NCBI RefSeq assembly: GCF_019670105.1
Contig: NZ_AP023032.1
Span: 1,234,972 to 1,298,971, forward strand
Direction of reading: 5' to 3'
Length of the DNA: 64,000 nt
Origin: Agarivorans albus
GTDB taxonomy: Bacteria > Pseudomonadota > Gammaproteobacteria > Enterobacterales > Celerinatantimonadaceae
Positions 27,157 to 44,917 of this stretch are shown here, one piece after another. The notes beneath the pieces were generated by a model. That model was given only the letters and a program-made list of their open reading frames with translations, was not told where the DNA came from and ran no database searches. Numbering within the stretch: position 1 is the stretch's first letter; each line of letters starts with the position of its first letter. Made by a program: the position numbers and the translations under genes.

Positions 27157-27175
27157 TGAATTACTCTTATTTTGA

Positions 27176-27207: not shown

Positions 27208-27330
27208 ATAGTTTTTCCAGTACAACTCTTCAGACAGAGGAGTAGAGTTAGGCGTCTCGGTAATCCGGTCTACCGGCGTTAGCTTCTTTAAACGAGTTGT
27301 GTTTGTATTCAGCTCGCGATAGATCACCAT
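27184..27330 (-). pseudogene. Transposase C-terminal remnant (left IS)
   Basis: A 48-codon frame ends inside the IS end with ...YWKNYKTVASFT. The right IS end encodes an almost identical tail, YWLEYKTVANLT. This shows two related IS elements whose gene 3' ends point outwards. The family could not be named. Confidence 0.5.
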
Positions 27331-27989
27331 AGTCAAAAGTGAAAAAGGTCGCACGTATGTACGACCTTCAAACTAGGGTCGGTATTACACCCTACAAATA
27401 ACTACTATTGCGTCACCAATACTTCCCATCTCAAAAGAATCGGCAGTTATACTTACCTCGTAATACCTCAGTTAAGCTTCACAGCGCGAATGGGGGTCAG
27501 ATCATAAGGTGTACACGGTAGATACTCTCAATCACCTCGCCAAGACTATCACTTAATCTAGCAAAAATTAGTAAACTCCAGCACAGTTGATACTCCACAA
27601 AAAAGTATCATTGTAGGGCGCTTTTTTTCAAAAATTTGGCCAAAGTAACCTCCTTGAGTGCCATCTTGATATGGCGCTACAGATATTTATATCAGTGATA
27701 TGTATTTGTTTCAAATTAACTTCTGTCCATAGTCGTGTGAAGGGAAATCATCGCGACACGTATTTTTCATCAGAACACTTTAAAGACGCACCGGCTGTTT
27801 AACTGGTACAAATTTATTTAAATTAGTGTGCTCTAGTTGTTTTGGGTCAATTGCAACGTAGGACAATGTTTTTTTTGCCCTGTATAATCTGGCGCTTAAT
27901 CCAAAGTATCTACCACAAAGCGTATAAGATCTTTTATCACGGAACGAGTTAAGCACATCAAAGCGCTGATAACTGTTTTAGAGGTAAAT

Positions 27990-28478
27990 TTGACTACATA
28001 TAAATACGCCTTCATGGCTTTATTCACCATCTCAATTAGTGGATGTTCATCTCAATATCCCGTGACATTCGATTCATATCCTCAAGGCGCTTCTGTAGTT
28101 TGTGGGAATAAGAACTGGGGACATACCCCAATAACTTTAAATTATGACCCATCCGTAAAAGAGCGAGAAGTTCTCGATTTAAGCAACTGTAGTGTGCAGT
28201 GGGTGAGTGGAGCTAAAACTAACTATCAACCCGTTAACGTGCAAGAGTTTCCCAACGGAGTTCGGCTTACCCAACAGCGGCCAAATGTACCTGGCTTTAG
28301 TGATGACGCTCAATACGCTATCCAATTAGAACAACTCAAGGTCCAGAAGGAAATGGCTGAAGAATTAAGAAAGGCTAATAATGCGAGGCCTGTTATTCAA
28401 GACTGTAGAAAGTATGGAGATTTTAGCGGTAGGGTATACCAATTCGAGGGAAGATGCCCTGATGGTTATTTTAACTAA
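27990..28478 (+). CDS. Lipoprotein with PEGA-like domain
   Basis: 162 aa, TTG start preceded by AGAGGT. Signal peptide with lipobox ISGC (Cys19). Residues about 24-80 read as a PEGA-type beta-domain (VTFDSYPQGASVVC, GHTPITLNY), which is found in many surface lipoproteins. Then a Gln/Glu/Lys-rich helix (about 105-128) and a Cys-containing end (CRKYGDF...CPDG). Function unknown. It is the first gene inside the IS-bounded segment and converges on the endonuclease I gene. Confidence 0.7.
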   Translation: MTTYKYAFMALFTISISGCSSQYPVTFDSYPQGASVVCGNKNWGHTPITLNYDPSVKEREVLDLSNCSVQWVSGAKTNYQPVNVQEFPNGVRLTQQRPNVPGFSDDAQYAIQLEQLKVQKEMAEELRKANNARPVIQDCRKYGDFSGRVYQFEGRCPDGYFN

Positions 28479-28501
28479 CTCAGCACTATTCCACACTCGA
28501 G

Positions 28502-28546
28502 TTAAAGCTCAGGTCTAGCAAACTTCTCCCTAGTCCTGAGCTTTAA
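28502..28546. terminator. Hairpin between convergent genes
   Basis: TTAAAGCTCAGG (28502-28513) pairs perfectly with CCTGAGCTTTAA (28535-28546) with a 21-nt loop. It has little T tract, so it is a moderate terminator candidate. Confidence 0.5.
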
Positions 28547-28565
28547 AAATACACCACATGATTTA

Positions 28566-29438
28566 TTAGAGGGAGGAGCATTGTTCTCCCCATATCAGAT
28601 TAGCCCATCCTGGCTGATCAATGAACGGATTCCTATTTCCTTGTATTTCTTCGACTCTATCGTTCCGGCGTCTTTCGAAGTCGCTAGGCGAGTACATGTT
28701 ATGCCAAGTGAGGAGAGTACAAAGATCGCCAATAAGCGGATCTTTAGTTACAAAGTTATCGTCGACAATTCTTAAATCACTCATTTTCTCTTCATCGGTA
28801 TTGTCCTGTGGTTCGTAGCGAACAGCCATGTAGAATAGCATTCTGGCTACCTGGCCTTTAGCGCGGTTGGGGGGCTCAAATGACTTATTTTCCTTATCGA
28901 GTTTTGCCGTAGTTTCTCGTGTCTGGCTATCTTCAAGTTTATCAAGGATGGGCTGACCACCATTGTCATACCCATAGTTAGAGTGCTTGTTATTCAGGTC
29001 TCGATCGGCGGGGCGCAGGTGATGCAGGTCGGTATATCCATCTTGATTCGGTTTGGGAAAAGATCGGGACTTTGGCCAAACATGCTCGCGTTCCCAAGCA
29101 TGTATAGCCGCTGTTCCACCTCGATAAGCTAAATCGGTTGAGCGAATTTCTCCTAGATAAAGTGTTACCACTAAATCACAGTCAGGAACTTCATCAGCAC
29201 AAGCTGAATCAGTGTAGGCAAGTGCTTCCCAGACATCTATATTTTCCCCATCAGTCCAGTCATCATTGCCTGATTTTGTGTAGGGTAAAGCCAAATGACC
29301 GTCAATAATTGTATGTAGAGCGGCTTTTAGATCTGTCCCTGTTTTTCCAAGTGCACTTTCGTAGTATCCGTCTTTAGGTGCGCAAAAAGACGCAAGTGAA
29401 TACACAGCTAAAATGCAGCCAAATAGTAACCTTCTCAT
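28566..29438 (-). CDS. endA: Endonuclease I family, periplasmic or secreted
   Basis: 290 aa. Signal peptide (about 1-19) then the EndA/Vvn/Dns fold: EREHVWPKS with general-base His, TDLHHLRPAD, and RDLNNKHSNYGYD with the Mg-binding Asn. Cys residues are present for disulfides, fitting an exported enzyme. Family members cut DNA non-specifically outside the cytoplasm for nutrition or to limit DNA uptake. Its 37-bp leader is nearly the same as that of the NUC nuclease 4.2 kb away. In this setting it is one of three unrelated nucleases. Confidence 0.93.
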   Translation of the reverse strand: MRRLLFGCILAVYSLASFCAPKDGYYESALGKTGTDLKAALHTIIDGHLALPYTKSGNDDWTDGENIDVWEALAYTDSACADEVPDCDLVVTLYLGEIRSTDLAYRGGTAAIHAWEREHVWPKSRSFPKPNQDGYTDLHHLRPADRDLNNKHSNYGYDNGGQPILDKLEDSQTRETTAKLDKENKSFEPPNRAKGQVARMLFYMAVRYEPQDNTDEEKMSDLRIVDDNFVTKDPLIGDLCTLLTWHNMYSPSDFERRRNDRVEEIQGNRNPFIDQPGWANLIWGEQCSSL

Positions 29439-29472
29439 AATAACTTCCTTGTCAGTATAGGGCTGAGTATAG
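29436..29472 (-). promoter_or_regulatory. Shared nuclease leader, copy 1
   Basis: Start codon, AAGGAAG ribosome site and the upstream CTATACTCAGC block agree with 33634-33670 at about 33 of 37 positions. Confidence 0.7.
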
Positions 29473-29784
29473 ACTGGTAGGGCCTGATAATCCTAGATAC
29501 TTTCTAAGCTTTTAAAGTAATGTTGTTTCTATCAATAATTCGAAAGTGTCCAGAAGTGTGTTACGCCGGTCGATAGACTAACAAGGTTTTTCCCCATTTA
29601 GTTTGAGGCAAAACTATCGATAATGACTAAGAAGTAAGTCGTTCAGGTATAGTTTTCATCATAAGTCTGTCGACAAGTCTCAGGCCATACTAGGTCGATT
29701 ATGAAGATACTCTCTACTTTGATAGACAACCCATGATTTCGCCAAGGAAGAAAAGCGCTTCATATAGGCGTTCTAACTGTTGCG
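29473..29784. other. Intergenic region, nothing recognised
   Basis: 312 bp between the endonuclease I leader and the end of the PD-(D/E)xK-like gene. No ORF, RNA or repeat could be supported. Confidence 0.4.
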
Positions 29785-31380
29785 CTAAAGTCTAGATTTT
29801 AGCGCTTGTTCTAACTGCGCAACAGCTTGATAGAATTGGCGAATCTTTTTAGGTTCAGTGCCCCAATTCTTCCTTGAGTGCGTGAATTTTTTGTTTAACG
29901 TGCTCAGTAATTTTTCTACATTAGATTGAAGTAGTTGAGTACCAATAGGTGATGCATTTTGAAGATTATGTATGCTTGCAAATGCTTCTATCCGTTGCCG
30001 CATATCGAAAGTTTGAGTTGCTGGTTCTTTTTCCTGCTCAGTACAAAAATCAAGAAATTCCGCAATGTCTTTTCCCGCCTCAAAGCATACCGCTACCATT
30101 CCTTCAAAATCAGCGATGCTGAAAAAATGAATGTTTTCAATAGGAAATTGCCCATTACTAGCTTCAGTTACTTTATGTGATAGTTCTTCACCGAGATATT
30201 GAACTAACTTAGAGCCACTTCCACAGTAAAAATCTTGATGTGTAACAACTATTGAGTATCTGTTTTCATAAGGCGCTAGATCTTCATAGGCTATATCGCC
30301 CAATATTTGAGCACAGCGACTGCCTTGCGTAACGCCACTCAATAGATTGTCTCTCAGCTTATCTTTGAGCATTCGTGTTGAGTCGGTTACTAGCAACTTT
30401 TCTTTTGGCTCAACTCCTTTCGCATCAATAAACACAGAAGAGCCATTGTTTTGATGCAGAAAGTCAATTACTTTTCCCTGACGTTTATGCTGCTTATAGG
30501 TGTCATTGATATCATCTTCTGTTATGTAAGTGAAATTGAACTCTCCCAGTGTAGTACCAACATATGACTCAAAACTCTTGGTAAACTTTTTTTGGAAACG
30601 CTGAGTGTCAACAGCTTTAAGCGTTCGTAGGACAAACTCACTAATTCCAATACTCACGATGTAAGGGTGGGCATGAGATATATGTATATCTAGTAAAATT
30701 AGAGGCTTCTTTATCAATAAAGGTTCGTAGAAATAAGTCTCTGGTCGTAAAGGTAATTGCAACGGCTGAGCGAGCGCTTTCAATCCTGGGATTGTGCTTC
30801 CGACTAATTTTAGTATCTTGGAGATAGATTCTATGGAAAGTGCAGGATGGAAATTTACCAATATCTGGCCTAGCGTTAGATTCTTATTTTTCGTATCACT
30901 AAAGTAGTTAACAATCCAAATAGCAAAGAGGAAAAAATCTTCTAAATCAACACCCGTAGCTTTCTTGAAGTCTTCTGTGAATGACTGCTTGAAACCGAGC
31001 TGAGACATGATTGTGTATAGTCTAAGCAAGAAGAAGCTATGAGTTATTTGAGGTACTTGAAACCGAAGTTGAGATAGTAGAAATGCCCTTAGAGACAGCC
31101 AAATATCTTTCTCTTTTTCGATACCCATTGCTTTGCCTTGCAATTCCCACATGCTTTGCAAAATTGGTTGAACATCTTTTTGCGTTGCTTCCCTAGCGCC
31201 TGCGATGGGATCTAGTTCTAATGCCCAGTCAATCGCCAAGCATAAGATCCAAGGTCTCTTAAACGCTTCGCCCATATCATGCTCTTTGTGAAGCCGAGAT
31301 AAGATACGAAGCACAAAGCTTTCAGTGGTAAAATATCGGATCTTTTGGCGTATCTTACTTGCTGCCTGATCGTAACTCAT
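29785..31380 (-). CDS. Large protein with PD-(D/E)xK-like nuclease core, function unknown
   Basis: 531 aa, no signal peptide. Residues 1-260 are helical and not recognised. A restriction-type core follows: FESYVGTTL with Glu271, KVIDFLHQNNGSSVFIDAKG with Asp306 and the Asp319-Ala-Lys321 triad. That is the E...D...(D/E)xK order of PD-(D/E)xK enzymes, including NERD-like ones. The C-terminal third is helical. It is a single gene with a terminator upstream that isolates it from the next gene. The size, single-gene layout and neighbours suit a defence effector; this is inference and no named family was recognised. Confidence 0.65.
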   Translation of the reverse strand: MSYDQAASKIRQKIRYFTTESFVLRILSRLHKEHDMGEAFKRPWILCLAIDWALELDPIAGAREATQKDVQPILQSMWELQGKAMGIEKEKDIWLSLRAFLLSQLRFQVPQITHSFFLLRLYTIMSQLGFKQSFTEDFKKATGVDLEDFFLFAIWIVNYFSDTKNKNLTLGQILVNFHPALSIESISKILKLVGSTIPGLKALAQPLQLPLRPETYFYEPLLIKKPLILLDIHISHAHPYIVSIGISEFVLRTLKAVDTQRFQKKFTKSFESYVGTTLGEFNFTYITEDDINDTYKQHKRQGKVIDFLHQNNGSSVFIDAKGVEPKEKLLVTDSTRMLKDKLRDNLLSGVTQGSRCAQILGDIAYEDLAPYENRYSIVVTHQDFYCGSGSKLVQYLGEELSHKVTEASNGQFPIENIHFFSIADFEGMVAVCFEAGKDIAEFLDFCTEQEKEPATQTFDMRQRIEAFASIHNLQNASPIGTQLLQSNVEKLLSTLNKKFTHSRKNWGTEPKKIRQFYQAVAQLEQALKSRL

Positions 31381-31470
31381 ACAATTCCTCTAAACTAGAG
31401 ATTGTAAGTTACAGTATGATTAACTTAATCAACTGTCTTTGATTTCTATTAGAAAAACAGTCGTTACAAT

Positions 31471-31500
31471 GAAAAAAGGGAAAACCTTCACTTTCCCTTT
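31471..31500 (-). terminator. Terminator after the EEP nuclease gene
   Basis: AAAGGGAAA pairs with TTTCCCTTT (31475-31483 with 31492-31500) and on the minus strand is followed by TTTTTTC. Confidence 0.75.
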
Positions 31501-31599
31501 ATGTTGCTTTTGCTTTTCCGCATGCTAAGCGAGCGGCTTGGCATTTTGTGTATTTTTATTTCACATTTTTAATAGCTTGCTTTTCATCCGAAATTGATG

Positions 31600-32616
31600 C
31601 TACGGGTTTATTTCTAAAGAGACTACAGCATGATCGCTAGTTGCTTGTTTGTCTGCGCCGGGGAGCTCCTTTAGCGTTTCTGTATCTGCGATATGCTCGT
31701 TCCAGACCTTGTGTTCTGTTACGCTGTTTTCTAATTCTTGAGTGACAAAGGCATAATCAAGGGTGCTACCTTTCCCGCCGAAGTAATGTGTTGGAGCATT
31801 ACTTTTTGTGTCTGCGACACTATATCCACTGTAAAGTTTTAATTTGTTGTAAACTGGCTTAACGCTAGAAGAGTCTTCATATTCTGAAGGACCTTCGATT
31901 TTAGGTACAAAATAGCCTGTTGGGCACATTGAGTCATATTCAACGCTGTTGAAATCACAGTTAATGTCGCCTAAAACAATAGTTGGTAACGCTGAGGAAC
32001 GTTGCTCAGTCATTACGTCCGAAGCAACGCAAGCGGCCTCAGTACCTCGTTGTAATAAGGAGGCGATTTTACCCTTTGATTGCCCAATCATTTCTTGAAG
32101 TACACGATCTTCTAATTCATCTTCTACATCGTAAGCCCTCGAGTATAAGGGCCTTTTACTTTTAAGGTGCAAAACATAAACTCTCACTAAGCCAAAATTT
32201 TCAGTTTCAATGAGTGCTTTGATAGGTGTTCGACTAAAGCTAAATCCTTCTTTTAAACCCAGTGTTCCTACTAGTTCTCCACTAGTGCCAACCTCAGAAA
32301 CTGAACGGATTGGGTATTTGGATGCTATTGCAACAACCGGGTGATTGTAGATCGTGGGGTCTGTTTCGTCGCGACCAACTGAGCCAACAGAGGCAAAATT
32401 TGTGTAGCCAGCTTCTGAACAAAGCTGCTTTAGGGATTTCTTACTAAAGACCTCCTGAAAACCAACAATATCAGCAGCGATATCATTCAAGGTACTCTTA
32501 ATCCACTCTCGCTTTTTTTCCCACTTTTCAGGACTATATTTATTCTTACTTTTTTTCTGGTACCAGTAATTACCTGGTTCTAAGTATTGGTAAAGGTTAA
32601 AGGTTGCTACTTTCAT
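31600..32616 (-). CDS. Endonuclease/exonuclease/phosphatase (EEP) family protein
   Basis: 338 aa. It opens directly with the EEP fold (KVATFNLYQYL), then FQEVF with the metal-binding Glu, HLKSKRP, VLGDINCDFNS with the catalytic Asp and Asn, and SDHAVVSLEI at the end with the final Asp-His. There is no signal peptide. EEP enzymes include DNA, RNA and phospholipid hydrolases, so the substrate is not certain; a DNase is likely given its neighbours. It has its own terminator. Confidence 0.88.
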   Translation of the reverse strand: MKVATFNLYQYLEPGNYWYQKKSKNKYSPEKWEKKREWIKSTLNDIAADIVGFQEVFSKKSLKQLCSEAGYTNFASVGSVGRDETDPTIYNHPVVAIASKYPIRSVSEVGTSGELVGTLGLKEGFSFSRTPIKALIETENFGLVRVYVLHLKSKRPLYSRAYDVEDELEDRVLQEMIGQSKGKIASLLQRGTEAACVASDVMTEQRSSALPTIVLGDINCDFNSVEYDSMCPTGYFVPKIEGPSEYEDSSSVKPVYNKLKLYSGYSVADTKSNAPTHYFGGKGSTLDYAFVTQELENSVTEHKVWNEHIADTETLKELPGADKQATSDHAVVSLEINP

Positions 32617-32745
32617 TGTGTATTTCCTTTATGCTATTTAAATAATTGTATTTAAAGCCTTTTACTTATAAGTAGAGCTCATATTTGTTACTTCTTTTTC
32701 TTCGTAACATGAACGCTAGGGCTGATTTGTAAGTCGTCTAGTGGT

Positions 32746-33636
32746 TTACCCTCTACAAGCTCTTGTGATCATTTCTTTCTTGTATGGCCATATATCAGAA
32801 GCAGTTTGTGCTTTAAGCTTTTTTCTCTTTATTTCACTGATACTATTTAAAAACGATAATCCTGTTATTTCTTCAATTTCAGCAATTGAGGTCAGGTAGC
32901 GAGAATGATCATAATTCTTTGAGTAATAACCAGCACCTAGTTGCGGATAGATGAATGCGAGAACGTCCGGATTCTCCAGATTGCTCTCTCGGACTACGAT
33001 TTTGAATAAGGCATCGGGTATAGCGACTTTGAACTCTTCACCTTCACCTATGTATCCTGAAGGCATTCCATCAATGTATATGGGCCCTGTTATAACCCAG
33101 AGCTTTCCGTATTCTTGTGCCCAAGCAGAAGTTATGTACTCTAAATCCAACCAAATCCCGCTGTTGAATTTTTTTCTCTGAGGTACTGCGTTCAAAAATG
33201 TAAATGTTTGTGCTGCTGCTTCATTGCTTATCCTCTCCGCTATTAACTTCATTTGGAGGTGGCCTCGCACATACCAATCCGGGTTCGCACTTCGGAACTT
33301 ATTGGAGTAGGCATAGCTATTATCTTTGGGGGCAATCCCATTATCTTCAAACTTCTTTTCAGCCTTCCAACTATGGCCACCTTTCGTGGGAATACACTCA
33401 CCTAAATACTCTCTAATTTCGTATGCAACCCATTCAGGGGTTCCAGTTACATCATCACCCGGTAAGTCATTGTTATCGTCTTTGGAATCCATACTGGCAG
33501 TAAACGCGATAAATTCTTTGATGGTATCTTGAGGCTGAGTAACCCATTTGTCGTGGGAGTATGGATCTTGCGTGTCTGAATGAGTTAAATGCGAAGTCAA
33601 AACGGCTATCGCTAGAGTCAGCATTCGAATCTTCAT
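32746..33636 (-). CDS. DNA/RNA non-specific endonuclease (NUC family), exported
   Basis: 296 aa from the ATG at 33636, chosen since a signal peptide (MKIRMLTLAIAVLTSHLTHS) and an AAGGAAG ribosome site fit it; upstream in-frame codons are mostly untranslated leader. The NUC fold has YVRGHLQMK, where the RGH His is the catalytic base (DRGH in relatives), and then FLNAVPQ and IWLDLE with the metal-binding Asn and Glu. The Asp of DRGH is Val here (YVRGH), which is unusual. The enzyme should act outside the cytoplasm. Confidence 0.85.
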   Translation of the reverse strand: MKIRMLTLAIAVLTSHLTHSDTQDPYSHDKWVTQPQDTIKEFIAFTASMDSKDDNNDLPGDDVTGTPEWVAYEIREYLGECIPTKGGHSWKAEKKFEDNGIAPKDNSYAYSNKFRSANPDWYVRGHLQMKLIAERISNEAAAQTFTFLNAVPQRKKFNSGIWLDLEYITSAWAQEYGKLWVITGPIYIDGMPSGYIGEGEEFKVAIPDALFKIVVRESNLENPDVLAFIYPQLGAGYYSKNYDHSRYLTSIAEIEEITGLSFLNSISEIKRKKLKAQTASDIWPYKKEMITRACRG

Positions 33637-33670
33637 AATAACTTCCTTGTTAATATATCGCTGAGTATAG
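33634..33670 (-). promoter_or_regulatory. Shared nuclease leader, copy 2
   Basis: Same start-codon, ribosome-site and CTATACTCAGC block as 29436-29472. The rest up to 33948 contains no other recognised feature. Confidence 0.7.
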
Positions 33671-33948
33671 TCACCTATTTCAGCAATTTGGAAGATCAGA
33701 ACTAAATGGTTGAATATTTTGTTTTTGCGCAACAAAGAAGCGGAAATATCATTCGTTTGTTTCGATACATTAGCTTTGGTTGAAGGCTTAATGAGTACGC
33801 GAATAAATCTTTGCAAGTAGAACTGCTCAATCATCAACACTAATCCAATTAGTGACATCTCAGTAATATTTCCTCAGGGCTCGTTACTTAAAGCTCCAAA
33901 ATCGACTATGCTATTTATCAATTAAGCGCTAGATAATTAGGTTCGCAT
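33671..33948. other. Divergent intergenic region before the caspase operon
   Basis: Divides the NUC gene from the caspase operon. No operator or gene was recognised; AT-rich promoter-like sequence (TATGCTATTTATCAATTAAG) lies near 33907-33926. Confidence 0.35.
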
Positions 33949-34419
33949 ATGCAGGGGCTAGGTAGAGTTTTCTTGAGAAGTAGGCAAATTGAAATACTTA
34001 TCAAGAATAGTGTTCTTTTCGCTACCGCTTTGGTGATATCAATTTCTGGGTACGCTAGCGATTCTGCCACGATAAAAAGGCTAGCTGGGAACTCTGAGAA
34101 AATATGGCAAGTCGAAGCATTTGATATCAACTTAGGTACTTCGAGTGATTGTACAAAGGGTATTCAGTATATTTTCAACTCAAGCCGCAGCTTGACAATA
34201 CGTTCTTGCATAAATTCAAATGTTAAAACTATTCAACTCCCGTTTCGCATTGAAAGTGACGGAATAGATACGTTCATTCGTTACGATAAGCAAATATATC
34301 GGCTAATTTACTCTTGGAGAATAAATGATTTAGGTTTAGAGGAAGAAGAGTTAATTATACGAATGGATGGGTCTAAGCAGGTGGCTACTGAAGACATCAT
34401 TATGGTTCATATTCCTTGA
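33949..34419 (+). CDS. Exported small protein of the caspase operon
   Basis: 156 aa. An N-terminal hydrophobic stretch (about 18-37, ending SGYASDS) looks like a signal peptide with a long n-region. The mature part is beta-rich with two Cys residues (SSDCTKG, IRSCIN) that could form a disulfide in the periplasm. No family was recognised. Its stop shares one base with the ATG of the next gene (TGATG), so translation is coupled. Its role is presumably tied to the membrane protein and caspase that follow. Confidence 0.65.
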   Translation: MQGLGRVFLRSRQIEILIKNSVLFATALVISISGYASDSATIKRLAGNSEKIWQVEAFDINLGTSSDCTKGIQYIFNSSRSLTIRSCINSNVKTIQLPFRIESDGIDTFIRYDKQIYRLIYSWRINDLGLEEEELIIRMDGSKQVATEDIIMVHIP

Positions 34420-34898
34420 TGGAAACAGAGAAACTGGAACGAAAAAAGCTTTGGATTAGCTTAGTCAGCACAATCATTGCTGGGCTTAGCGTGATATCTA
34501 GTGTGGTGATCTATATCCACGGGTTAGATGAATCTATAGAGAAGGAGCAAGCTCTTATCGACCAGCGCTCTCAGGTAGAGTATCACCGTAGCTTGTGGGA
34601 TGAACGACGTGAAAGTTATAAGTTATTGGCAACCATACTCGGTGGTATTGCCGCAGAAATTGAGATTGATAAAAAAATATCATCGGAATCTTTAAAGTCG
34701 TTTTCAAAGGCTTATTGGGGTTTGTTAATTATGGTTGAAAATGAGTCTGTGAAATCTGAGTTGACTAAATTGAAAGATGACTTACGGGACTTAGAACAAA
34801 ATAGGATATCCGCTAATAAGATTAAGTTACGTATACAACGAATAATATCTTTGAGTAAAAATCATATAGATGAGGTGGTTGATGCTTCCAGCTTCTAA
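34419..34898 (+). CDS. Membrane-anchored coiled-coil protein of the caspase operon
   Basis: 159 aa. One transmembrane segment (about residues 12-34, ISLVSTIIAGLSVISSVVIYIHG) with a short basic cytoplasmic end, then a helical coiled-coil stretch in the periplasm (about 38-155). No family was recognised. It starts at the stop of the first gene and overlaps the caspase gene by 17 bp. A membrane anchor or sensor for the caspase is a natural guess, not shown. Confidence 0.65.
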   Translation: METEKLERKKLWISLVSTIIAGLSVISSVVIYIHGLDESIEKEQALIDQRSQVEYHRSLWDERRESYKLLATILGGIAAEIEIDKKISSESLKSFSKAYWGLLIMVENESVKSELTKLKDDLRDLEQNRISANKIKLRIQRIISLSKNHIDEVVDASSF

Positions 34899-36369
34899 GG
34901 TATTCACCTTGTTGATATGTATTCATTTTAGTTTTTTTTCAAATTTGGCACAAAGCACACAAATTGATAATGTTCACTTACTCCTTATCAGCAACGGTCA
35001 CTATGTAGATAAAATAAAGGACAGAAACCGAGATGGGTCGGGCTCTATAGTAGATTTTAATGGTGCTCACGTGTCTGCAATGGTCGTAAATTCAGTGCTA
35101 GATAAACACTTCGGTTTAGCTTCATCAACCTTGCTCCGTTCAGATGAGCATCAAATAGTGAGTAAGGATGATGTATTCAACATCCTGGATTCTTTAAAAA
35201 GAAAAATTAACACGGCAACCGAGAAAAGCTATCTAATTGTTTACTATGTAGGCCACGGCTTCGGAGAAGGGATCGCTTGGAACTACTTTCTTCAACCGGG
35301 AAATGTAGAATTTCCTAATGCTCTAAATTCCTTAGATGTTGAAACATTAGCAAGTCAACTTATTTACGTGGGAGATTTGAACGAAAAATTGATAGAGCTT
35401 GGCCTTCCTTACACATTACTTATTGATGCTTGTTATGAAGGAAGTGCTGTAGATCTATTTGCTACACCGCTTCTATCAGATACAGCTAAACAAAATCTAG
35501 AAGATGTTTCTGATGTATTAAAGTTTATGAACCAATTTCATGGTGATAATCCAGTTGTTTTCTCCACGCATCCGGGAAGCTATGTCCGCACTGTAACACC
35601 GCCGCTGAATCTTAATCTCTCCTATAACATAGGTCCACTTGCGCGTCGACTAGAACTCAGTTCGAAGCATTGGGCAATAACAAAAGGCTATGTAAAGCTG
35701 GAGGACGTCATTCACTCCATAATGTCTCCAAAATTGGACTCAGAAACACTACCTGCGGTGTCTTTCGCAAGCTTTGGACAACAATATGCTTTTCTCAAAA
35801 CTCAGGGGGGGGCTCGTGTCAAGGTTGATAGATTTTGGGGCTCGGCAACGACAAGTGATTTGCTGTTATTACAAGGGGCGATATCAGATGAATATGAACC
35901 AACTAATGATCAGGTTAAAGATACATTCGAAATTACTTTCGCGACTATTGCCATAATAGGAAAGCCTAACGAGTACATATCCGACGGTAAGGATTACGTT
36001 TTTACCTCGGGATTAGAAAAAATGAGCATAGATACTTTGACTGAAAACGAACTTATACTGCAAATGGAATTAGATGGTGAAAACTGGTTCTTTTCTATTG
36101 CGGTTCCTGAGGGAGAACCTTTCCAGCCCAAGTATTATGAAAATATTAGTCGGCATCCTTTCCAAGAAGGGGAGAATGCAGGATTGGATATTTCTGGTGC
36201 AGGTCGAGGTTGTAACGACATATCTGGTGACTTTAATATTGAATCTGTCAATTACTTAAATGGCATACCGAGTTCTTTATCTTTATCATTTACTCAGTTT
36301 TGCGATGATGAACCTAACCCTATCAAGGGAAGCCTAATAATCGAAATTCAAACGACCGATAGACTTTGA
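34882..36369 (+). CDS. Exported caspase-like (peptidase C14) protein
   Basis: 495 aa from the ATG at 34882, preceded by GAGGTGG. A signal peptide ends near LAQS, so it acts in the periplasm or outside. Residues about 28-195 form a caspase p20-like domain: HLLLISNGHY, then YYVGHGFGEG with catalytic His125 and LLIDACYEGS with Cys184. The C-terminal about 140 residues are a beta-sandwich-type domain with ISGAGRGCND, FTQFCDDE and a final G-x-I strand, a pattern seen in other exported proteins. It is the third gene of an overlapping operon. Most known defence caspases are cytoplasmic, so an exported one is unusual. Confidence 0.8.
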   Translation: MLPASKVFTLLICIHFSFFSNLAQSTQIDNVHLLLISNGHYVDKIKDRNRDGSGSIVDFNGAHVSAMVVNSVLDKHFGLASSTLLRSDEHQIVSKDDVFNILDSLKRKINTATEKSYLIVYYVGHGFGEGIAWNYFLQPGNVEFPNALNSLDVETLASQLIYVGDLNEKLIELGLPYTLLIDACYEGSAVDLFATPLLSDTAKQNLEDVSDVLKFMNQFHGDNPVVFSTHPGSYVRTVTPPLNLNLSYNIGPLARRLELSSKHWAITKGYVKLEDVIHSIMSPKLDSETLPAVSFASFGQQYAFLKTQGGARVKVDRFWGSATTSDLLLLQGAISDEYEPTNDQVKDTFEITFATIAIIGKPNEYISDGKDYVFTSGLEKMSIDTLTENELILQMELDGENWFFSIAVPEGEPFQPKYYENISRHPFQEGENAGLDISGAGRGCNDISGDFNIESVNYLNGIPSSLSLSFTQFCDDEPNPIKGSLIIEIQTTDRL

Positions 36370-36756
36370 GGCTATTTTCTCTTTTTAGCCATGGTTTTAC
36401 CTTTTATAGTTAAGTTACATTTTTTGCCATAAAAAGTGTCGAGTGTTCTCAGGCCTTACCAATCTGAAACCTTCCAAAAAGTATCAAAATATGTTGAACA
36501 TCAAAATAGCGCCCCAAAGTGGATGTTTAAGGGCTCTCCTGAGCTTTTATCACATAAAGAAATTGAAGACTTAACTGAAAGTTTGGCCGCTTGTCAGTAA
36601 ACTGTAGTGGCTGAGGGAGAAGGCTTAATGAGTATCAAGGCGCTTAAGGTGGACTGCAAACCTGTGGCGGTTTTGGTTCAAGTCGGTTAGTGTGATTGAG
36701 GTGGTTAATTTGGGTGTAGTGGTGTTTACAGCCACTTAGCTTATCGTTACAGGGCA
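36370..36756. other. Intergenic region with gene debris
   Basis: 387 bp after the caspase gene with only the two short frames mentioned and no strong terminator. Confidence 0.4.
36436..36600 (+). CDS. Small ORF, possible remnant
   Basis: 54 codons from a GTG, directly after an in-frame stop; ends LTESLAACQ. Helical, no recognised family. It may be the end of a lost gene rather than a real one. The rest of 36370-36756 shows only a further 20-codon frame. Confidence 0.3.
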   Translation: MSSVLRPYQSETFQKVSKYVEHQNSAPKWMFKGSPELLSHKEIEDLTESLAACQ

Positions 36757-37200
36757 ATGACTTTGACACATCATATAATTACATTCGAAATTCAAACAGG
36801 GCCAGTTGAAGATGGAACTGAGAAGGATATTGCGATTTTTATCCTTAATGAATTTTCTGCGCTAGCTGAAAAGCATGGTTTTCGGGAAGGCTTCTCGATA
36901 GAGGCCTCATGGAAAAAAGGATGTGTTCTTGAGCATATTTCTCTCTTGGTTACAAATGCAGATGCAGTCGTAACTGGTGTAACCGCTGCGGGCACTTATG
37001 TAGCACTAAAAGACTATAAGTCTCTTAGACAAAGTATTCTTTTGCTGCTGAATGATGTAAGAACTATAACGTATAAAACTAAGAAATTAACTTTTAAAGT
37101 CATCCGTGCTGTAATTTCAGAGAAACGAAAACCTCCGCTTCATGAGCGAATTGAGCCAACAATCAAACGAGATGATAATCCAAACCTTAAAAGCCTTTAA
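36757..37200 (+). CDS. Small protein of unknown function
   Basis: 147 aa. Residues 1-65 look like an alpha/beta unit; a weakly hydrophobic helix (AVVTGVTAAGTYVALKDY) is near 70-87; the tail is basic. No family recognised. It ends exactly where the right IS end begins to be recognisable, so its 3' part may be affected by that insertion. Confidence 0.5.
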   Translation: MTLTHHIITFEIQTGPVEDGTEKDIAIFILNEFSALAEKHGFREGFSIEASWKKGCVLEHISLLVTNADAVVTGVTAAGTYVALKDYKSLRQSILLLLNDVRTITYKTKKLTFKVIRAVISEKRKPPLHERIEPTIKRDDNPNLKSL

Positions 37201-37202
37201 TA

Positions 37203-37286
37203 AGCCGCAGCAATCGCTCCTGTTGGTCGCAGGGACAACCCAAACGCTATTGGCTTGAATACAAAACCGTGGCCAATTTAACTTGA
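37203..37286 (+). pseudogene. Transposase C-terminal remnant (right IS)
   Basis: A frame ending RYWLEYKTVANLT, closely like the tail in the left IS end. No intact transposase is left. Confidence 0.5.
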
Positions 37287-37294
37287 CCACTACA
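37263..37294. repeat. Inverted IS end, right
   Basis: Reverse complement of 27176-27207 with two mismatches; ends ACTTGACCACTACA. Together they frame 10.1 kb. Confidence 0.85.
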
Positions 37295-37558
37295 ATTCAC
37301 TATGTCACTAAAATGGTAATCTTTAAAGCTAGGTGTATTTTGATACATTCCTAACATCTATCACTGTAGGAACTGATACTTACGAACTCATGCAATCTCT
37401 GCACATGGTGAAAGCTTTTAAATATCAACATCGGACAAACTCGCTTAGCAATTCTATCAGCCCATACAATAACTCAGTTTTCTTATGGCATAGTCGATTT
37501 TGTCCTGCACCTAGTTTTTATTCGACACTCCTAGTTGGCTCAAGATAGTATTATTTTT
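37295..37558. other. Spacer after the right IS end
   Basis: 264 bp with no supported gene. Confidence 0.35.
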
Positions 37559-38077
37559 TCACCCTTCGGTAATCGCACCGGCAAAACTTAATCGTCCGTA
37601 CCATCCTGGCGAAAAGGTTATATGTTCGTCTAACCATGTGTTATCAGCACTAGCAAAAATCAGCGTGAATCCGGTAGCGTTTTTAAGCCACTGCTCCCAC
37701 CAGGTCCATAATGCATCTGCAATGTCATCATGCTTACCCGCCAAAATTTCGATGTCGTCGATAAACAATACGCAGTCTCCCTTCCGTACCAATTTGCAAG
37801 TTTCAGCGATAGCTTGCTCCCAATCGGTTAAATTCGGGGGAGGGATAGCAAACACCTCAGAGAGTTGGTTCGCTAAATCTAACAACTCATCAGCAAGCTT
37901 AAGGTTTCGTCCTCTACCCACAACTCTATATACCGGCACACCCAAATACTCAGAGATTGCCCGTATTAAGTAGTCCGAGTTGATACTTTGCTGCTTCCTT
38001 ATAACGTTGACCTTTGGGCGCTCACCTGGCTTAGAGAGCTGTTTGTAAAGGCACTTAAGGCTGCTTGAATGTTGCAA
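37559..38077 (-). pseudogene. Probably truncated AAA-type ATPase
   Basis: 172 codons whose first possible start is a TTG with no ATG in the frame. A Walker-B-like GDCVLFIDDIEIL (about 103-115) and a following WWEQWLKNATGFTLIFASADNTW strand-plus-helix resemble sensor regions of AAA ATPases, but no Walker A is present. Most likely the C-terminal part of an ATPase that lost its N-terminus. Confidence 0.5.
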
Positions 38078-38146
38078 AACAACTCCCGTTTAGACCGTTA
38101 CATTTGAACAAATAACCAATACTCGGAGTAGGTCGCGGGCAATTTC

Positions 38147-38302
38147 CTAACGACTTCTCCGCTTGAGCTTAAGCCCACGCCGTAAGAGTTTTTCTCTTAG
38201 GTTTTCTCGTGCTTGAGTCATCGATACGCCAGGGTTTACAAACTCATCACCGTCAAAAGGGTTGGGAATTACCCGACGCGCTACAAAGTGTCGCTTCTTC
38301 AT
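38147..38302 (-). CDS. Small basic protein, paralogue A
   Basis: 51 aa from the ATG at 38302 (a GTG at 38383 would give 78 aa; no good ribosome site for either). It carries RVIPNPF-x5-FVNPGVSMTQARENLREKLLRR. The same pattern occurs in the protein at 39157-39324. It is basic and could bind nucleic acid. No family was recognised. Confidence 0.55.
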   Translation of the reverse strand: MKKRHFVARRVIPNPFDGDEFVNPGVSMTQARENLREKLLRRGLKLKRRSR

Positions 38303-38383
38303 ACAGTTAGCGCCTATATCTGTGAAGTGACCACTGCTCCCGTCGAGGCTGTTCCTTCGTCTCCGTAACAAGGTACGCTTCAC

Positions 38384-38855
38384 TCTTACTCAATTTCAGT
38401 CTCTGACAACGCGATGAGGCATGGGTAGAACGTCTTAGCAAAACACGCTATTGATTCAGATTTACTCACCAGTCACTCCAAACTCTTTAGTTAATTCTAA
38501 TTCACATCTATATAATTCGCATGGCAGAAAAACCTGTTTTTCTAATATATTCAGTTAGTTTCGAAGTGATACTTACTATGTAGATGAACAGTATTTGATA
38601 TGCGATTTACTGTCGTAAGTTAAGTTGTCAACTTAAAATATCTGTTTATTTTGGGGTATTGAAGACCCAAATTAAGCACGATAATCATCGGAGTGATGCT
38701 CCGCTAACTACGTCTTGATTTGCTTTTATCCTTGCAGTTCAGCGAGCCTAATCTAGCGGACTCTCTTTGGATCATTAACAAGGTCTTAGGCAATTGGCTA
38801 TAGCAGGTCACTTCACTGGTATATTAGATCCGTAGTCAACCTATTATTGCTCGCT
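38384..38855. other. Intergenic region with a 17-bp palindrome
   Basis: 472 bp, no gene seen. Contains TTAAGTTG-T-CAACTTAA (38620-38636) and a small hairpin CGGAG/CTCCG near 38689-38703. Confidence 0.45.
38620..38636. repeat. Perfect 17-bp palindrome, operator-like
   Basis: TTAAGTTG, one base, CAACTTAA. It could be a repressor operator or a transposase half-site pair. Its core AAGTTG is shared with the repeats at 12631-12690. Confidence 0.45.
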
Positions 38856-39065
38856 TTAGAATTCAGCACCCTTAGGCTCGTCATCTTCATCATTGAGCTT
38901 CTCATTCAAATCTATTTCAACACCGTCGATGAGCTTATCTACCGATTCTCGCATCTCTTGAGTAAGCGGTACTGAGCATTTCAGTAAGTCTTGAAAGGCA
39001 TCGTCATAGAGCGCTTCTGCGTCCTCGGGGGGCGGGTTTATCTTCCCCTTCGTATCTTTGGTCAT
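38856..39065 (-). CDS. Small acidic protein
   Basis: 69 aa from the ATG at 39065, with GGAG upstream; a GTG 42 bases earlier is possible. Strongly acidic at the end (NEKLNDEDDEPKGAEF). It lies between the two basic paralogues, which might suggest a partner. No family recognised. Confidence 0.5.
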   Translation of the reverse strand: MTKDTKGKINPPPEDAEALYDDAFQDLLKCSVPLTQEMRESVDKLIDGVEIDLNEKLNDEDDEPKGAEF

Positions 39066-39156
39066 CAGTTCTACTCCAATACCAGTTTTCAGAAAATTAC
39101 AAAACACACACTATTTCTGGGCAATTAGAGGAAGGGGTGAGCAACCAACCTCTTGC

Positions 39157-39324
39157 CTATCGCTTCGCGGTGTTAGCAATCCCTCTTCGCCGAACGAGTT
39201 TCGCCTTGAGGTTTTCACTAGCTTGTGCGAATGAGACCCCAGGATTAACAAATCCAGGTTTTAGAAAAGGATTGGGGATAACCGCCGGGACATTTTCTTC
39301 TTCATATCGGTTCTGTAAATGCAT
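39157..39324 (-). CDS. Small basic protein, paralogue B
   Basis: 55 aa from the ATG at 39324. Contains AVIPNPF-x4-FVNPGVSFAQASENLKAKLVRRR, matching paralogue A in motif and layout with a basic end. Divergent from the transposition genes. Confidence 0.55.
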   Translation of the reverse strand: MHLQNRYEEENVPAVIPNPFLKPGFVNPGVSFAQASENLKAKLVRRRGIANTAKR

Positions 39325-39518
39325 GAATCTGAGAATATAGCGTAACGAGTCGTGCAATGAGTTTACGCCACGGACTAATCTTCGCTTATAGCAAAAAGTT
39401 CTAAAAAAACTTGATGCACTAGCTCTTCACTCCATGAAAAATGCCAAAAATCAAACTTCTTAATTTTCAGGTGTTTAGCAAAAAACACAAGCTCTGTACT
39501 GACATTTTATTAATTATT

Positions 39519-39556
39519 GCTAATAATAAGTTGTTGAAAAATAAAGAATTATTAGC
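39519..39556. promoter_or_regulatory. Inverted repeat upstream of tnsA
   Basis: GCTAATAAT (39519-39527) and ATTATTAGC (39548-39556) lie in the AT-rich region before tnsA. A possible operator for the tns operon. Confidence 0.4.
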
Positions 39557-39629
39557 ATTTGAATATGGTTATTTTGTAAGCTCTCGACTATCTTTCTTCG
39601 CTTACCCTCAACACTTAAGGAGAAAGAAG

Positions 39630-40259
39630 GTGAGCCTAAATAGAAAAATCGGAAAAGCGTCAATGATGAAAATCGCTCGCTTCGATTACAGCATAAAGAC
39701 AGGAACCTTACAGTACATGGAGTCCATGCTCGAAAGCGATGTCTGCTTATTGCTGGACTTTGACGATGAGGTTGTCAGTTACACCACCCAACCTGACAGT
39801 TTCATGAACCACTCGAAGGAGGGAAACTGGCGTCAGTATACCCCTGACCTGCTGATTCAATACTCTCGGCATTTTGACCACGGAGAAGTTAAGCCCGAAG
39901 CGAAAACCTATTCGGATGAATTCCAGAAAAAGCATGCATTGCACGAAAGTATTGTGAAGGAACAAACTGGCACAGAGCTAAAGCTTTTCACTGAGCCAAA
40001 GGTTCACCCTGATCGCTTAGTCCAACTGCGTCAGCTCAAGGCTTTTCATCGCTATGAGGCGATACCGTCACTCAACAAACAAGTGGTGCAGTTCATTAAA
40101 GATAACGGTGGTCAGGTAGTGCTCTCTGAGATTGATCACATCTGTGTGGAGCACGAGGCTTGGGTTTCCTATCCTATGGTCATGCTTGCTCATCAAGTGA
40201 TACGTTGCGTGTTTCCAGAGGTTATTAGACGTCACACTCTTGTGGAGGTGGCAGCATGA
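39630..40259 (+). CDS. tnsA: Tn7-like transposase subunit TnsA
   Basis: 209 aa from the GTG at 39630, selected since AAGGAG lies 7 bases upstream. TnsA is a restriction-enzyme-like nuclease that cuts the 5' ends of the transposon. The catalytic pattern is visible as YMESMLESD (Glu), YTPDLLI (Asp) and GEVKPEAK (Glu/Lys). The C-terminal half is the TnsC-contacting domain. The stop overlaps tnsB by 4 bp. A further in-frame upstream extension (from 39441) is unlike known TnsA and lies in promoter DNA. Confidence 0.9.
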   Translation: MSLNRKIGKASMMKIARFDYSIKTGTLQYMESMLESDVCLLLDFDDEVVSYTTQPDSFMNHSKEGNWRQYTPDLLIQYSRHFDHGEVKPEAKTYSDEFQKKHALHESIVKEQTGTELKLFTEPKVHPDRLVQLRQLKAFHRYEAIPSLNKQVVQFIKDNGGQVVLSEIDHICVEHEAWVSYPMVMLAHQVIRCVFPEVIRRHTLVEVAA

Positions 40260-42265
40260 ATCCGCAGACAGCTAAATCACCCTCTACCTATCAAGACCGC
40301 CCAACCCAGTTTGTCAAAGGCATGCTGTTAAGTTACGACAAGGAGGAGCACGTTGTTCGCACTGTTGAGCCGGATTATATGGTGCTGGAGAATACACTGA
40401 CCCACGAGCCCAAAATGCTGAAGACGGATGTATGGTCTCTTGCTTATCACGAAGGCTTTCTGAAGGTTACCGAAAGAGAAAATACGGTTGCCATCCATCC
40501 TATTACTGATGCTGAAAAGTTAGCCGAAGCCGAGCGTTGGTTAGCCTACCTGAACGAGTTAGACATTTCTGGTTCACCGGGCTCGATGGAAACGAGGCTT
40601 AAGGTCATCGACAGTGTTTCCAAACGGGTTAGTGACCCCAACCCACCGCATCAGATGAAGCTTTATCGTATGCATAAAAAGTGGGGGCGGAAAGGCAGGA
40701 ATATTTATGCCTTACTCAACACTAAGCTGACGCGCACTAAACCGGTCACCGAAGCTCAGTATGACTTTGCGATGGCCGTTATTGATGAACATTATCTGGT
40801 ACCGCATGGCGGTAACCGTTCTGCACTATATCGCACATACAAAGAAGCTTTTTATCTGGATATTAACCAAGAAAAATATGAACTCTGCGGTAAACCCATG
40901 TCCAAAACCTCGTTGGACAACCTATTAGATGAGCTGGACCCCTTCCAGGTTTCGGTTGCCCAGAAAGGGCTCAAAGCTGCCCGCGCTCTATTCAGAGACA
41001 GCAACGAGAAAATCATCACCAAGCACCCAGGGCAACGCGTGGAAATCGATGCTGTTCACTTAAATTTAGGGGTGCTTTGTGATGAAACGGGAGAGTATTT
41101 GGGGCGTATTATTTTGTTCCTCGCTATCGATGTGCATACCAGGTACATCCTAGGATACTCGATTGTCTACGGCACTAAACCGGCAGAATCTGCTGAAGCT
41201 GCTATGAACTTGCTGCGACATGTACTCTCGCCGAAGTTGAAAAACGGCAATTTTCAACATGATTGGCATACGATTGGAACACCGGAAGCATTTCATTCTG
41301 ATAATGGCGCAGGGTTTATATCAGAAACGGTGACTCACTTTTATGCTCTCCTTCATAGCAGTATCCATCGCGCTGAGTCCGGAAAGTCACAACGGCGTCC
41401 ATTTGTCGAACGTTTTAATCGCACTATTCGTGAGCAACTGATGACGAAAATTCCGGGGTATTTAGGTAAGCGCGTCGATGCGAAAGATTTCAATAAAACG
41501 GTAGAAGCGGCGGCAGTAATTACCCTGTCCGAGTTTATTCGGTACTTGGAAGAATACATCGTCGATTACTACCACCAAAATGCGCATAAAGGGTTAGATG
41601 GCTTAAGTCCGGCACAAAAGCTGGCTCAGTGTGTAGGCGATTTTTACCCAAGGCCCGCAGCGGATTTAGCGATGCTAGATACCCTGGTTGGCGCGACTTA
41701 TACGCGCACCATACAGGAAACGCAAGGAGTACAGATTGAAAACTTGTACTACAACTCGACTGAGTTGAAACACTTGCGGTTCAAGCTCATGCAGAAGCGC
41801 AATTCGACAAATAGCAAATCGAAAGACACCAAGTCGAGGAGTGACAAAGTAAAAGTCGAGGTCATATTTAACAAAAAGGACATTTCATCCGTCACTGTCA
41901 TTGTGCCGGGCGAGATGGAGATGATGATTGTACCTCTGCGCGATAAAACAGTCGCTCCAGGAACCAGCCTTGAAGCCTATCGGGCGCAAAATCAAGCCGC
42001 CAAAAAAGGAGCGCAAAACGCTGAGACTAAGACTTATCCATCAAAACATGGTGAGCACGGTAAACCTAAGAAACGTAAGCCTTCGTCGTCTGCGCCGAAG
42101 TCTAAAGCGTTAGAGAGCGGCAGCTATTGCCCTCAAACAACGCTTGAGGAGGGGGTGAATCGCTTTGCGAGAGACAACTCTAAACTGACGTATGTGCAAC
42201 CCAGCACTTCAGTGCTAGAGCCTCCTATCCCGGACTACTCCCGAGAATTGTCTGGAGGGCGATAG
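40256..42265 (+). CDS. tnsB: Tn7-like transposase subunit TnsB
   Basis: 669 aa. DDE integrase-type transposase that binds the ends and joins the 3' ends. Helix-turn-helix N-terminus, then catalytic Asp in VEIDAVHLNLGV, Asp in FHSDNGAGF and Glu in FVERFNRTIREQL, then a beta-barrel and a Lys/Ser/Pro-rich tail (about 570-640) that usually contacts TnsC. Overlaps tnsA by 4 bp and is followed directly by tnsC. Confidence 0.93.
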   Translation: MNPQTAKSPSTYQDRPTQFVKGMLLSYDKEEHVVRTVEPDYMVLENTLTHEPKMLKTDVWSLAYHEGFLKVTERENTVAIHPITDAEKLAEAERWLAYLNELDISGSPGSMETRLKVIDSVSKRVSDPNPPHQMKLYRMHKKWGRKGRNIYALLNTKLTRTKPVTEAQYDFAMAVIDEHYLVPHGGNRSALYRTYKEAFYLDINQEKYELCGKPMSKTSLDNLLDELDPFQVSVAQKGLKAARALFRDSNEKIITKHPGQRVEIDAVHLNLGVLCDETGEYLGRIILFLAIDVHTRYILGYSIVYGTKPAESAEAAMNLLRHVLSPKLKNGNFQHDWHTIGTPEAFHSDNGAGFISETVTHFYALLHSSIHRAESGKSQRRPFVERFNRTIREQLMTKIPGYLGKRVDAKDFNKTVEAAAVITLSEFIRYLEEYIVDYYHQNAHKGLDGLSPAQKLAQCVGDFYPRPAADLAMLDTLVGATYTRTIQETQGVQIENLYYNSTELKHLRFKLMQKRNSTNSKSKDTKSRSDKVKVEVIFNKKDISSVTVIVPGEMEMMIVPLRDKTVAPGTSLEAYRAQNQAAKKGAQNAETKTYPSKHGEHGKPKKRKPSSSAPKSKALESGSYCPQTTLEEGVNRFARDNSKLTYVQPSTSVLEPPIPDYSRELSGGR

Positions 42266-42266
42266 C

Positions 42267-43247
42267 ATGGATGAGCATAACCATAACCAAGAGCTTGATG
42301 CCTTTTTGGCACGTACGATTTTTTACCCTAAGTTCAAGGTTGCTTACGACACGTTGACTCATATCTACAAATTTGGCGGTCGCGATGCTGAACTGGTGGT
42401 GTTGATAGGACCTGTCGGGGCGGGTAAGAGTCATATGATTGAGCAACTGATGCTCGATTACCCGATTAGGGACACCGATGAGCAAACGTTCAGACCTATC
42501 TTGTATGCCCGCATACCACCTGAAAACACTTACGCGGGCTTACTCGGAAATCTGCTTGAAGCAATGGGAGATCCTTTACCGTGGCGCGGCTTGGTTGTTG
42601 AGCGTCGTATGCGGCTTAAGAGCTTAATTACTCAACAGCAAACTCGGATGATTACATTAGATGAGTCTCAGTCAGTTATTCCTCGCTCTGGAGCGGACGC
42701 TAAAACCGCAAACGTTAAACTGCTGCTTGAGCTGATGAATGATCTGAAAATCCCCATTTTGCTGGCTGGTAAGGAAGACTTACTTGCGCTGATGGCCGCA
42801 GACGATGCCATACGTTCTCGTACCCGCTGTAAGTTATCACTCAGTTATTTCTCGTGTATGACGAGAGCTGGAGCTTTCGACTTTGCCGACTATATCCAAG
42901 GCCTGATAGGGTTCTTTCCTCGTAAGGTGAAAGGGTTCAATTTTTTCAGTGTGTTAGATGATGGGAAACCAGTACTTAAGAAAGACATCAGTACTTTGAT
43001 TCGGTTAATACTCGCCACTGATGGCTGCCCTCGTAGTATTAGGTTCTTGTTCAAAGCGGTTATTGAACGTACCACTTCGGATACAGTTGTAGAACTTAAG
43101 CACTTTGCGGACGCTTTCTACACAGCGAGCAACCTGGAAATACCGCTGAGCTTTAATCCGCTTCTTGATAGCGAGTCTAGCGAGTCTATTGCTAAAGTTT
43201 CAGAAGAAGCAGAACGTCGGGGGTTGTATGACAGCGATGCCTTCTGA
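42267..43247 (+). CDS. tnsC: Tn7-like AAA+ regulator TnsC
   Basis: 326 aa. Walker A GPVGAGKSH near 50-58, Walker B MITLDESQ, and an Arg-rich sensor (RSRTRCKLSLSYF). TnsC links the target selector to TnsA/TnsB in an ATP-dependent way. One base separates it from tnsB; tniQ starts inside its 3' end, so the four genes are coupled. Confidence 0.93.
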   Translation: MDEHNHNQELDAFLARTIFYPKFKVAYDTLTHIYKFGGRDAELVVLIGPVGAGKSHMIEQLMLDYPIRDTDEQTFRPILYARIPPENTYAGLLGNLLEAMGDPLPWRGLVVERRMRLKSLITQQQTRMITLDESQSVIPRSGADAKTANVKLLLELMNDLKIPILLAGKEDLLALMAADDAIRSRTRCKLSLSYFSCMTRAGAFDFADYIQGLIGFFPRKVKGFNFFSVLDDGKPVLKKDISTLIRLILATDGCPRSIRFLFKAVIERTTSDTVVELKHFADAFYTASNLEIPLSFNPLLDSESSESIAKVSEEAERRGLYDSDAF

Positions 43248-44889: not shown

Positions 44890-44917
44890 CTGAAAAGCCC
44901 CATTCCTAACCTTCTCA

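Follow-up and report, generated by a model that had tools for sequence, protein, structure and literature searches.

In a stretch of 64,000 nucleotides (nt) of the Agarivorans albus genome (NCBI RefSeq assembly GCF_019670105.1, contig NZ_AP023032.1, positions 1,234,972 to 1,298,971; hereafter the window, whose first letter is position 1 for all coordinates given without a locus label), three overlapping open reading frames (ORFs) on the + strand at 33949–36369 encode proteins that we designate P1, P2 and P3. Sequence comparison indicates that this trio is a real conserved operon with an exported-looking caspase, P3, and that it lies on defence-carrying mobile DNA. The transfer-messenger RNA (tmRNA) of the source genome is one-piece and matches E. 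coli ssrA at 77% identity along its full length, which points to a gammaproteobacterial host, tmRNA of alphaproteobacteria being two-piece. Homologues of P1, P2 and P3 occur in identical order in the alphaproteobacterium Donghicola eburneus (locus L064), and a diverged set around a related caspase was identified in Sagittula stellata. The features of the window operon are as follows.

33949..34419, + strand: P1, 156 amino acids (aa), signal-like N-terminus, mature part of about 120 aa (ORF, hydropathy, Donghicola homologue)
34419..34898, + strand: P2, 159 aa, single hydrophobic stretch at residues 11–37 and charged C-terminal part (ORF, hydropathy and charges, homologue)
34882..36369, + strand: P3, 495 aa, predicted exported caspase-type protease (ORF, profile match, homologue)
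35254..35256, + strand: predicted catalytic His125 codon of P3 (in YYVGHG)
35431..35433, + strand: predicted catalytic Cys184 codon of P3 (in IDACYEG)
35944..36345, + strand: C-terminal domain of P3, about residues 352/355–488 (recurs in secreted-looking proteins; best-modelled part of P3)

A first-pass annotation of the window had read the three genes as one overlapping, operon-like unit with a His125/Cys184 dyad in the third, and both observations held. All three ORFs were confirmed, with a single base shared by the P1 stop and the P2 start in a TGATG junction and a 17-nt overlap of P2 with P3 when the latter starts at 34882, where a ribosome-binding-like GAGGTGG lies just 5′ of the ATG (an alternative ATG at 34870 would give a protein of 499 aa). 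The His125/Cys184 numbering fits the start at 34882, and neither residue varies when P3 is aligned with the Donghicola and Sagittula proteins. From this start P3 comprises a signal-like segment (residues 1–25), a caspase part (~30–260, with H125 and C184), a linker and a C-terminal beta domain. P1 has two cysteines, C68 and C87, both kept in its Donghicola homologue. Export and topology were judged for all three proteins by Kyte–Doolittle hydropathy, which suggests, as had been proposed, that all of them are directed to the envelope: the hydropathy maxima of P1 (1.87, residues 14–32) and P3 (1.63, residues 1–19) are signal-like, and P2 has one strong hydrophobic helix (2.29) and a charged, helical-looking C-terminal part. 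The charge balance around this helix, with four basic and three acidic residues ahead of it and one basic and four acidic behind, suggests that the P2 N-terminus is inside and its C-terminal part periplasmic.

Assignment of P3 to the caspases rests on profile comparison and on the dyad. P3 gave no match to the Pfam Peptidase_C14 model (PF00656) at an expectation value (E) of 1, and the NCBIfam caspase model NF047832 matched its residues 90–129 with E 0.0072 (15.8 bits, the cut-off being 140). When a two-sequence P3 alignment was compared by hhalign with seven caspase domains, the score was 94.7% (E 5.8e-8), rising to 97.8% (E 7.8e-13) for a three-sequence alignment of the caspase part; with 40 column shuffles per alignment, the controls reached at most 2.2% and 1.0% respectively, and the P2 and P1 alignments scored 0.2% and 0.1% against the same seven caspases. 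The seven reference domains were taken from fetched loci (the four that were scanned all matched PF00656 at E 1.9e-25 or better) and had surfaced as weak matches of the query itself, which somewhat favours the score. In the profile alignment, H125 falls on the GHG histidine (YYAGHG) and C184 on the cysteine of the D-S-C motif of the seven caspases, so that P3 carries the pair required of Peptidase_C14 and clan CD (GHG His, D-x-C Cys). Structure was less informative: a search of solved structures with P3 returned nothing at E 10, and an AlphaFold model from the two-sequence alignment had a mean predicted local distance difference test score (pLDDT) of only 42, a level at which the model counts neither for nor against a caspase fold and at which the lack of any Foldseek match at E 0.001 is not interpretable (the corresponding P1 model had a mean pLDDT of 48). 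The caspase relationship proposed in the first-pass annotation is thus supported by profile comparison with shuffle controls and by the dyad, and structure prediction could not show the fold.

The Donghicola trio was found by scanning genome contigs with exact short peptides, a method that misses distant relatives, across 84,980 species according to the tool description. The 90 pattern matches yielded two confirmed loci, namely Donghicola (47% identity over a 108-residue catalytic query) and an Ezakiella locus (L065; 30%, E 1e-5), the latter rejected as a relative on inspection, its ORF reading as kinase-like and without the dyad. The Donghicola genes, for which E-values are those of single comparisons, are the following.

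L064:8832-9272: Donghicola P1 (28–33% identity; 33% over 117 aa, E 2e-18)
L064:9282-9743: Donghicola P2 (43–44% identity; 43% over 147 aa, E 2e-46)
L064:9740-11182: Donghicola P3 (36% over 463 aa, E 1e-93)

P1 and P2 are separated here by a 9-nt gap rather than overlapping, and conservation within the trio is highest in P2, not in the protease. Differences between the window and Donghicola genes are commonest at codon position 3 (0.73, 0.77 and 0.72 for P3, P2 and P1, compared with 0.41, 0.31 and 0.46 at position 2), an excess that, being present in all three genes, is as expected for conserved proteins. The first-pass annotation could have been overturned had the small genes proved unrelated elsewhere; both recur with the caspase in Donghicola. 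The more distant Sagittula caspase was reached through a weak plasmid match (26% over 140 aa, E 2e-4; 30% over 147 aa against Donghicola P3). It lacks the C-terminal domain, and is the last of three overlapping annotated genes, for a protein with a signal-like start (P1′), a protein with one membrane helix (P2′) and the caspase-like protein, itself with a signal-like start. The charge bias around the P2′ helix (four basic and one acidic residue before, two and two after) is clearer than in Donghicola P2. P1′ and P2′ were rejected as demonstrable homologues of P1 and P2, because BLASTP and profile comparison showed no similarity, and the Sagittula operon therefore shares the architecture of the trio with detectable homology through the caspase only.

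Searches for further trios, in genome samples that partly overlap (394, 369, 394, 12 and 398 genomes), found none. With P3 as single query, matches at E 0.001 came from 12 genomes among the 394 sampled in the order, the 11 besides the source genome through the C-terminal domain only. The caspase part of P3 matched 40 of 369 genomes of the class at E 1 (own genome included; best other 1.3e-4, a C14 protein), and at E 0.1 P2 had matches in 17 of the 394 order-level genomes, counting the source genome, with 0.0027 as the best value outside it. A two-row P3 profile recovered Donghicola alone among 394 genomes of its family and the window copy alone among 12 genomes of the window's family, and a three-row caspase profile, run at E 0.01 on 398 genomes of the phylum, matched 14 with the source genome among them (1.2e-8 for the best of the rest), from which seven motif-filtered ORFs read as ordinary caspases. 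Five scans of viral contigs revealed no relative of the trio, and one match among phage records concerned the P3 C-terminal domain only. In 72,556 plasmid records the caspase part of P3 matched Sagittula and two rows that were ignored (E 0.5 and 9), and neither P1 nor P2 had any match (P1 by itself was searched for in the plasmid records and viral contigs). The first-pass annotation had recognised no named system of this make-up, in agreement with our finding that none of P1, P2 and P3 has a match above cut-off in Pfam, NCBIfam or PADLOC and that each matches 0 families of PADLOC-DB 2.0.0 at E 0.01; Pfam names such as poxvirus and orbivirus proteins, far below cut-off, were dismissed.

Bacterial immune caspases have been described mainly as cytoplasmic, and export had been taken to set P3 apart. 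This was not borne out. Among 14 caspase ORFs that a motif search selected from the loci of the class and phylum samples, leaving aside ORFs with a start less than 200 nt from a locus end, 10 likewise open with a hydrophobic stretch resembling a signal, in several cases with a cysteine of lipoprotein type, and we therefore rejected export as what makes P3 unusual; the threshold used, a maximum mean hydropathy of at least 1.3 within the first 45 residues, was set after the fact. Some ORF ends within 60 nt of five of the 14, and none, within their short flanks, is preceded by two small overlapping genes for an exported and a membrane protein. An exported caspase is thus probably not a novelty in itself, the conserved trio being what appears to be new.

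The C-terminal domain of P3 provides a second indication of location. Residues 381–490 are the best-modelled part of the protein (block pLDDT 57–88) and all-beta, with weak best Foldseek rows (E 0.01–0.05), some of them lipocalin-type barrels, from which the fold could not be named. The frames with this domain (~352–488) in the 11 other genomes of the order include some of ~640 aa that end in it, a number of which start with a leading cysteine in the manner of lipoproteins; in others the domain is present twice. Two domain-bearing proteins scanned with Pfam contained Big_5 in one case and PKD, Ig-like, cadherin-like and CBM_5_12 domains in the other, the P3-type domain itself matching no named family in these scans. 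Because the domain recurs in secreted-looking proteins, it supports an extracytoplasmic P3, and its relatives hint at glycan or surface binding. The domain has a GxGRGCN motif, and was also seen in Photobacterium, Streptomyces and Simkania plasmid records and in one phage-labelled record.

The trio had been placed in a defence island, and that island proved to be a Tn7-like transposon with RADAR-like, Septu-like/type I restriction–modification (RM) and GapS1 genes.

12426..45229: Tn7-like transposon carrying the trio as cargo, 32,804 bp; its ends are TGTAGGTT...AACCTACA, flanked on each side by CATC

Its transposition genes (39441–44889) include TnsA-, TniB/TnsC- and TniQ-type genes above the Pfam cut-off and an rve-type transposase below it. 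The element separates recN from a GH53-family gene, ~33 kb apart in the window; these two are uninterrupted, ~145–150 bp apart, in two of the six other genomes of the genus (G055 and G109), the best GH53 match lying elsewhere in the other four. A clean 5-bp target duplication was not seen at the transposon ends. Within the element, PADLOC recognised a RADAR-like pair at 22133–27156 (RdrA, 1.8e-35, 120 bits; RdrB, 1.5e-24, 84 bits), a profile match identified GapS1 (2.6e-156), and Septu-like PtuB/PtuA genes directly follow type I RM specificity and methylase genes at 12780–21950, all on one strand with short gaps or none. Further cargo comprises an EndA-like nuclease, an exo/endonuclease/phosphatase-family protein and a DNA/RNA non-specific endonuclease, so that much of the recognised cargo consists of predicted defence genes and nucleases. 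In Donghicola, the genes next downstream of the trio are hamA and hamB of the Hachiman system (PADLOC, 2.4e-100 and E 0), with a RES-domain gene beyond them and a secreted SNase-type nuclease gene ~1.5 kb upstream of the trio. Named defence systems, as called by profile, thus adjoin both homologous trios. The Sagittula set lies on a conjugative plasmid, with type IV secretion genes on one side of it and a gene for a transposase on the other.

Among characterized systems, the trio most invites comparison with canu (CanABC; PMC12799240), a three-gene operon reported in defence islands and near transposases, in which a caspase is complexed with one of its partners and serves as the activator of a metallo-β-lactamase (MBL)-fold pro-nuclease. 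The two are alike in being three-gene operons whose caspase carries a beta domain at its C-terminus (Ig-like in the canu caspase; all-beta with weak Foldseek rows in P3) and in the setting of defence islands and transposases. They differ in that canu has a caspase-activated MBL-fold nuclease whereas the trio holds no recognised nuclease, and in that the trio proteins have signal-like or membrane N-termini whereas no export signal is mentioned for canu, the terms 'signal peptide', 'periplasm' and 'exported' not occurring in the main text of that source (PMC12799240). No MBL-fold nuclease was recognised among the scanned window proteins, and the next same-strand ORF of at least 100 aa (36757–37200) has no Pfam match at E 1; because this component is missing, the trio, as predicted from its sequence, is not canu. 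According to the same source, caspases also act in type III CRISPR, gasdermin/CARD, NLR and Thoeris immunity (PMC12799240); the trio resembles these in placing a caspase homologue in a defence setting and differs in that P1 and P2 match no family in the three libraries. From Peptidase_C14 (PF00656) caspases with exported or lipoprotein-like starts, with which it shares the GHG/D-x-C dyad and, often, a signal-like N-terminus, P3 differs in being missed by the Pfam model and in the pair of small genes upstream, absent from the short flanks of the 14 examined. SNIPE, described as a membrane-bound nuclease that defends at phage genome injection (PMC13190303), is a precedent for defence at the cell membrane during phage DNA entry, although it is a nuclease and P3 a predicted protease. 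In titles and abstract openings (in part the best 12 of 258 and the best 8 of 72), no exported three-gene caspase defence system was found, and solely for this reason we regard the trio as undescribed within the literature searched.

The conserved gene set, the caspase profile, the signal-like starts and predicted topology, the defence-gene settings and the canu and SNIPE precedents together lead us to read the trio, tentatively and with somewhat less than even confidence, as a mobile envelope defence module in which a periplasmic caspase complex, tethered to the membrane, counters phages or other mobile DNA. P2 would hold the complex at the inner membrane, its C-terminal part reaching into the periplasm; P1, with its two conserved cysteines, could serve as a sensor or as a brake on the protease, and the C-terminal beta domain of P3 might bind glycan, peptidoglycan or another envelope ligand. 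Entry of phage or other DNA would disturb the envelope and release or activate P3, which could then cleave periplasmic or inner-membrane proteins, so that entry is stopped or the cell is killed before phage is made. If so, a conserved, mobile set of genes would bring a caspase into the envelope and extend caspase immunity to the DNA-entry step, and a use would be suggested for other bacterial caspases with signal-like starts; the trio would moreover provide a well-delimited operon, open to testing, that combines a catalytic dyad with a membrane anchor and a presumed sensor or inhibitor. Several points weigh against this module. P1 and P2 have no family match, and their roles as sensor and anchor follow from topology, just as export of the trio proteins follows from hydropathy; the P2 charge bias is weak in Donghicola (three basic and four acidic residues before the helix, one and five after). 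The P3 model was of low confidence, the small Sagittula proteins resemble neither P1 nor P2, and the 38 kb around the Sagittula set show none of the named defence systems (annotation only, PADLOC not having been run there). Clearly homologous loci number two, plus one diverged, a sample too small for a statistic of defence association, and mobile elements also carry cargo unrelated to defence. A role in defence is the best single reading, but an unproven one.

A variant in which the tethered exported caspase would detect incoming genomes at the envelope and turn on further exported effectors, possibly the adjacent EndA-like and DNA/RNA non-specific nucleases, seems to us quite improbable, and these nucleases were rejected as established parts of the system, since they are encoded on the opposite strand, Donghicola has a different, SNase-type nuclease and none is annotated beside the Sagittula set (from annotation only). 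We consider it unlikely that the trio is instead an addiction or death module, with P3 as an envelope toxin checked by P1 (and P2), a role in maintaining the element and any phage effect secondary: location of the window and Sagittula copies on mobile elements and a caspase gene preceded by two small partners, with overlaps or short gaps between the genes, would suit it, whereas three genes and a membrane anchor would seem to exceed the needs of such a module, and the plasmid records searched yielded no copy besides the diverged Sagittula set. Similarly unlikely, in our estimate, is that P3 serves envelope processing or the stress response as a regulated protease of the periplasm, maturing or degrading surface proteins and travelling as ordinary cargo. 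Such a role would be in keeping with the signal-like starts common among the caspases examined and with the secreted-looking relatives of the C-terminal domain, one with CBM_5_12; it accords poorly with the defence genes adjoining both homologous loci and with a rare, patchy spread unlike that of housekeeping genes. That the envelope target is an incoming plasmid or conjugation machinery rather than a phage is suggested by the type IV secretion genes next to the Sagittula operon, yet no conjugation gene was recognised among the scanned neighbours in the window or in Donghicola, and we hold exclusion of this kind to be very unlikely. That three unrelated genes came together by chance in a gene-dense island was conceivable while the set was known from one genome only; this is contradicted by the same-order homologues in Donghicola, a member of another class, and its likelihood appears close to negligible.

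Some further features of the three neighbourhoods were recorded. Upstream of the Donghicola trio, two trypsin-like, Sel1-repeat-like proteins of 1174 and 1094 aa (L105:3630-7154 and 10214-13498) appear by inspection to be duplicates. In Sagittula, same-strand genes of SUMF1/EgtB/PvdO, ATP-binding cassette and MotA/TolQ/ExbB types (L104:1056-16698), ~4 kb from the caspase set, may form a conflict system. In the window transposon, the modest scores of the RADAR-like pair against the PADLOC models indicate that it is diverged. Inverted IS3-family-like ends of 35 nt, 91% complementary, lie at 27176–27210 and 37260–37294 and bracket a 10.1-kb segment with GapS1, the two exported nucleases, the exo/endonuclease/phosphatase-family gene and the trio; a search of the source genome gave these two ends only, no transposase was recognised inside and no matching target duplication was found, and the segment has the look of a passenger carried inside the transposon. 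The two exported nuclease genes at 28566–29438 and 32746–33636, EndA-like and DNA/RNA non-specific, share a 38-nt leader that includes the start codon (29435–29472 and 33633–33670, 34 of 38 positions identical), which suggests common regulation or recent shuffling. Beside the transposition genes, on the opposite strand, a short AAA-type ORF of 172 aa (37559–38077) is possibly a remnant.

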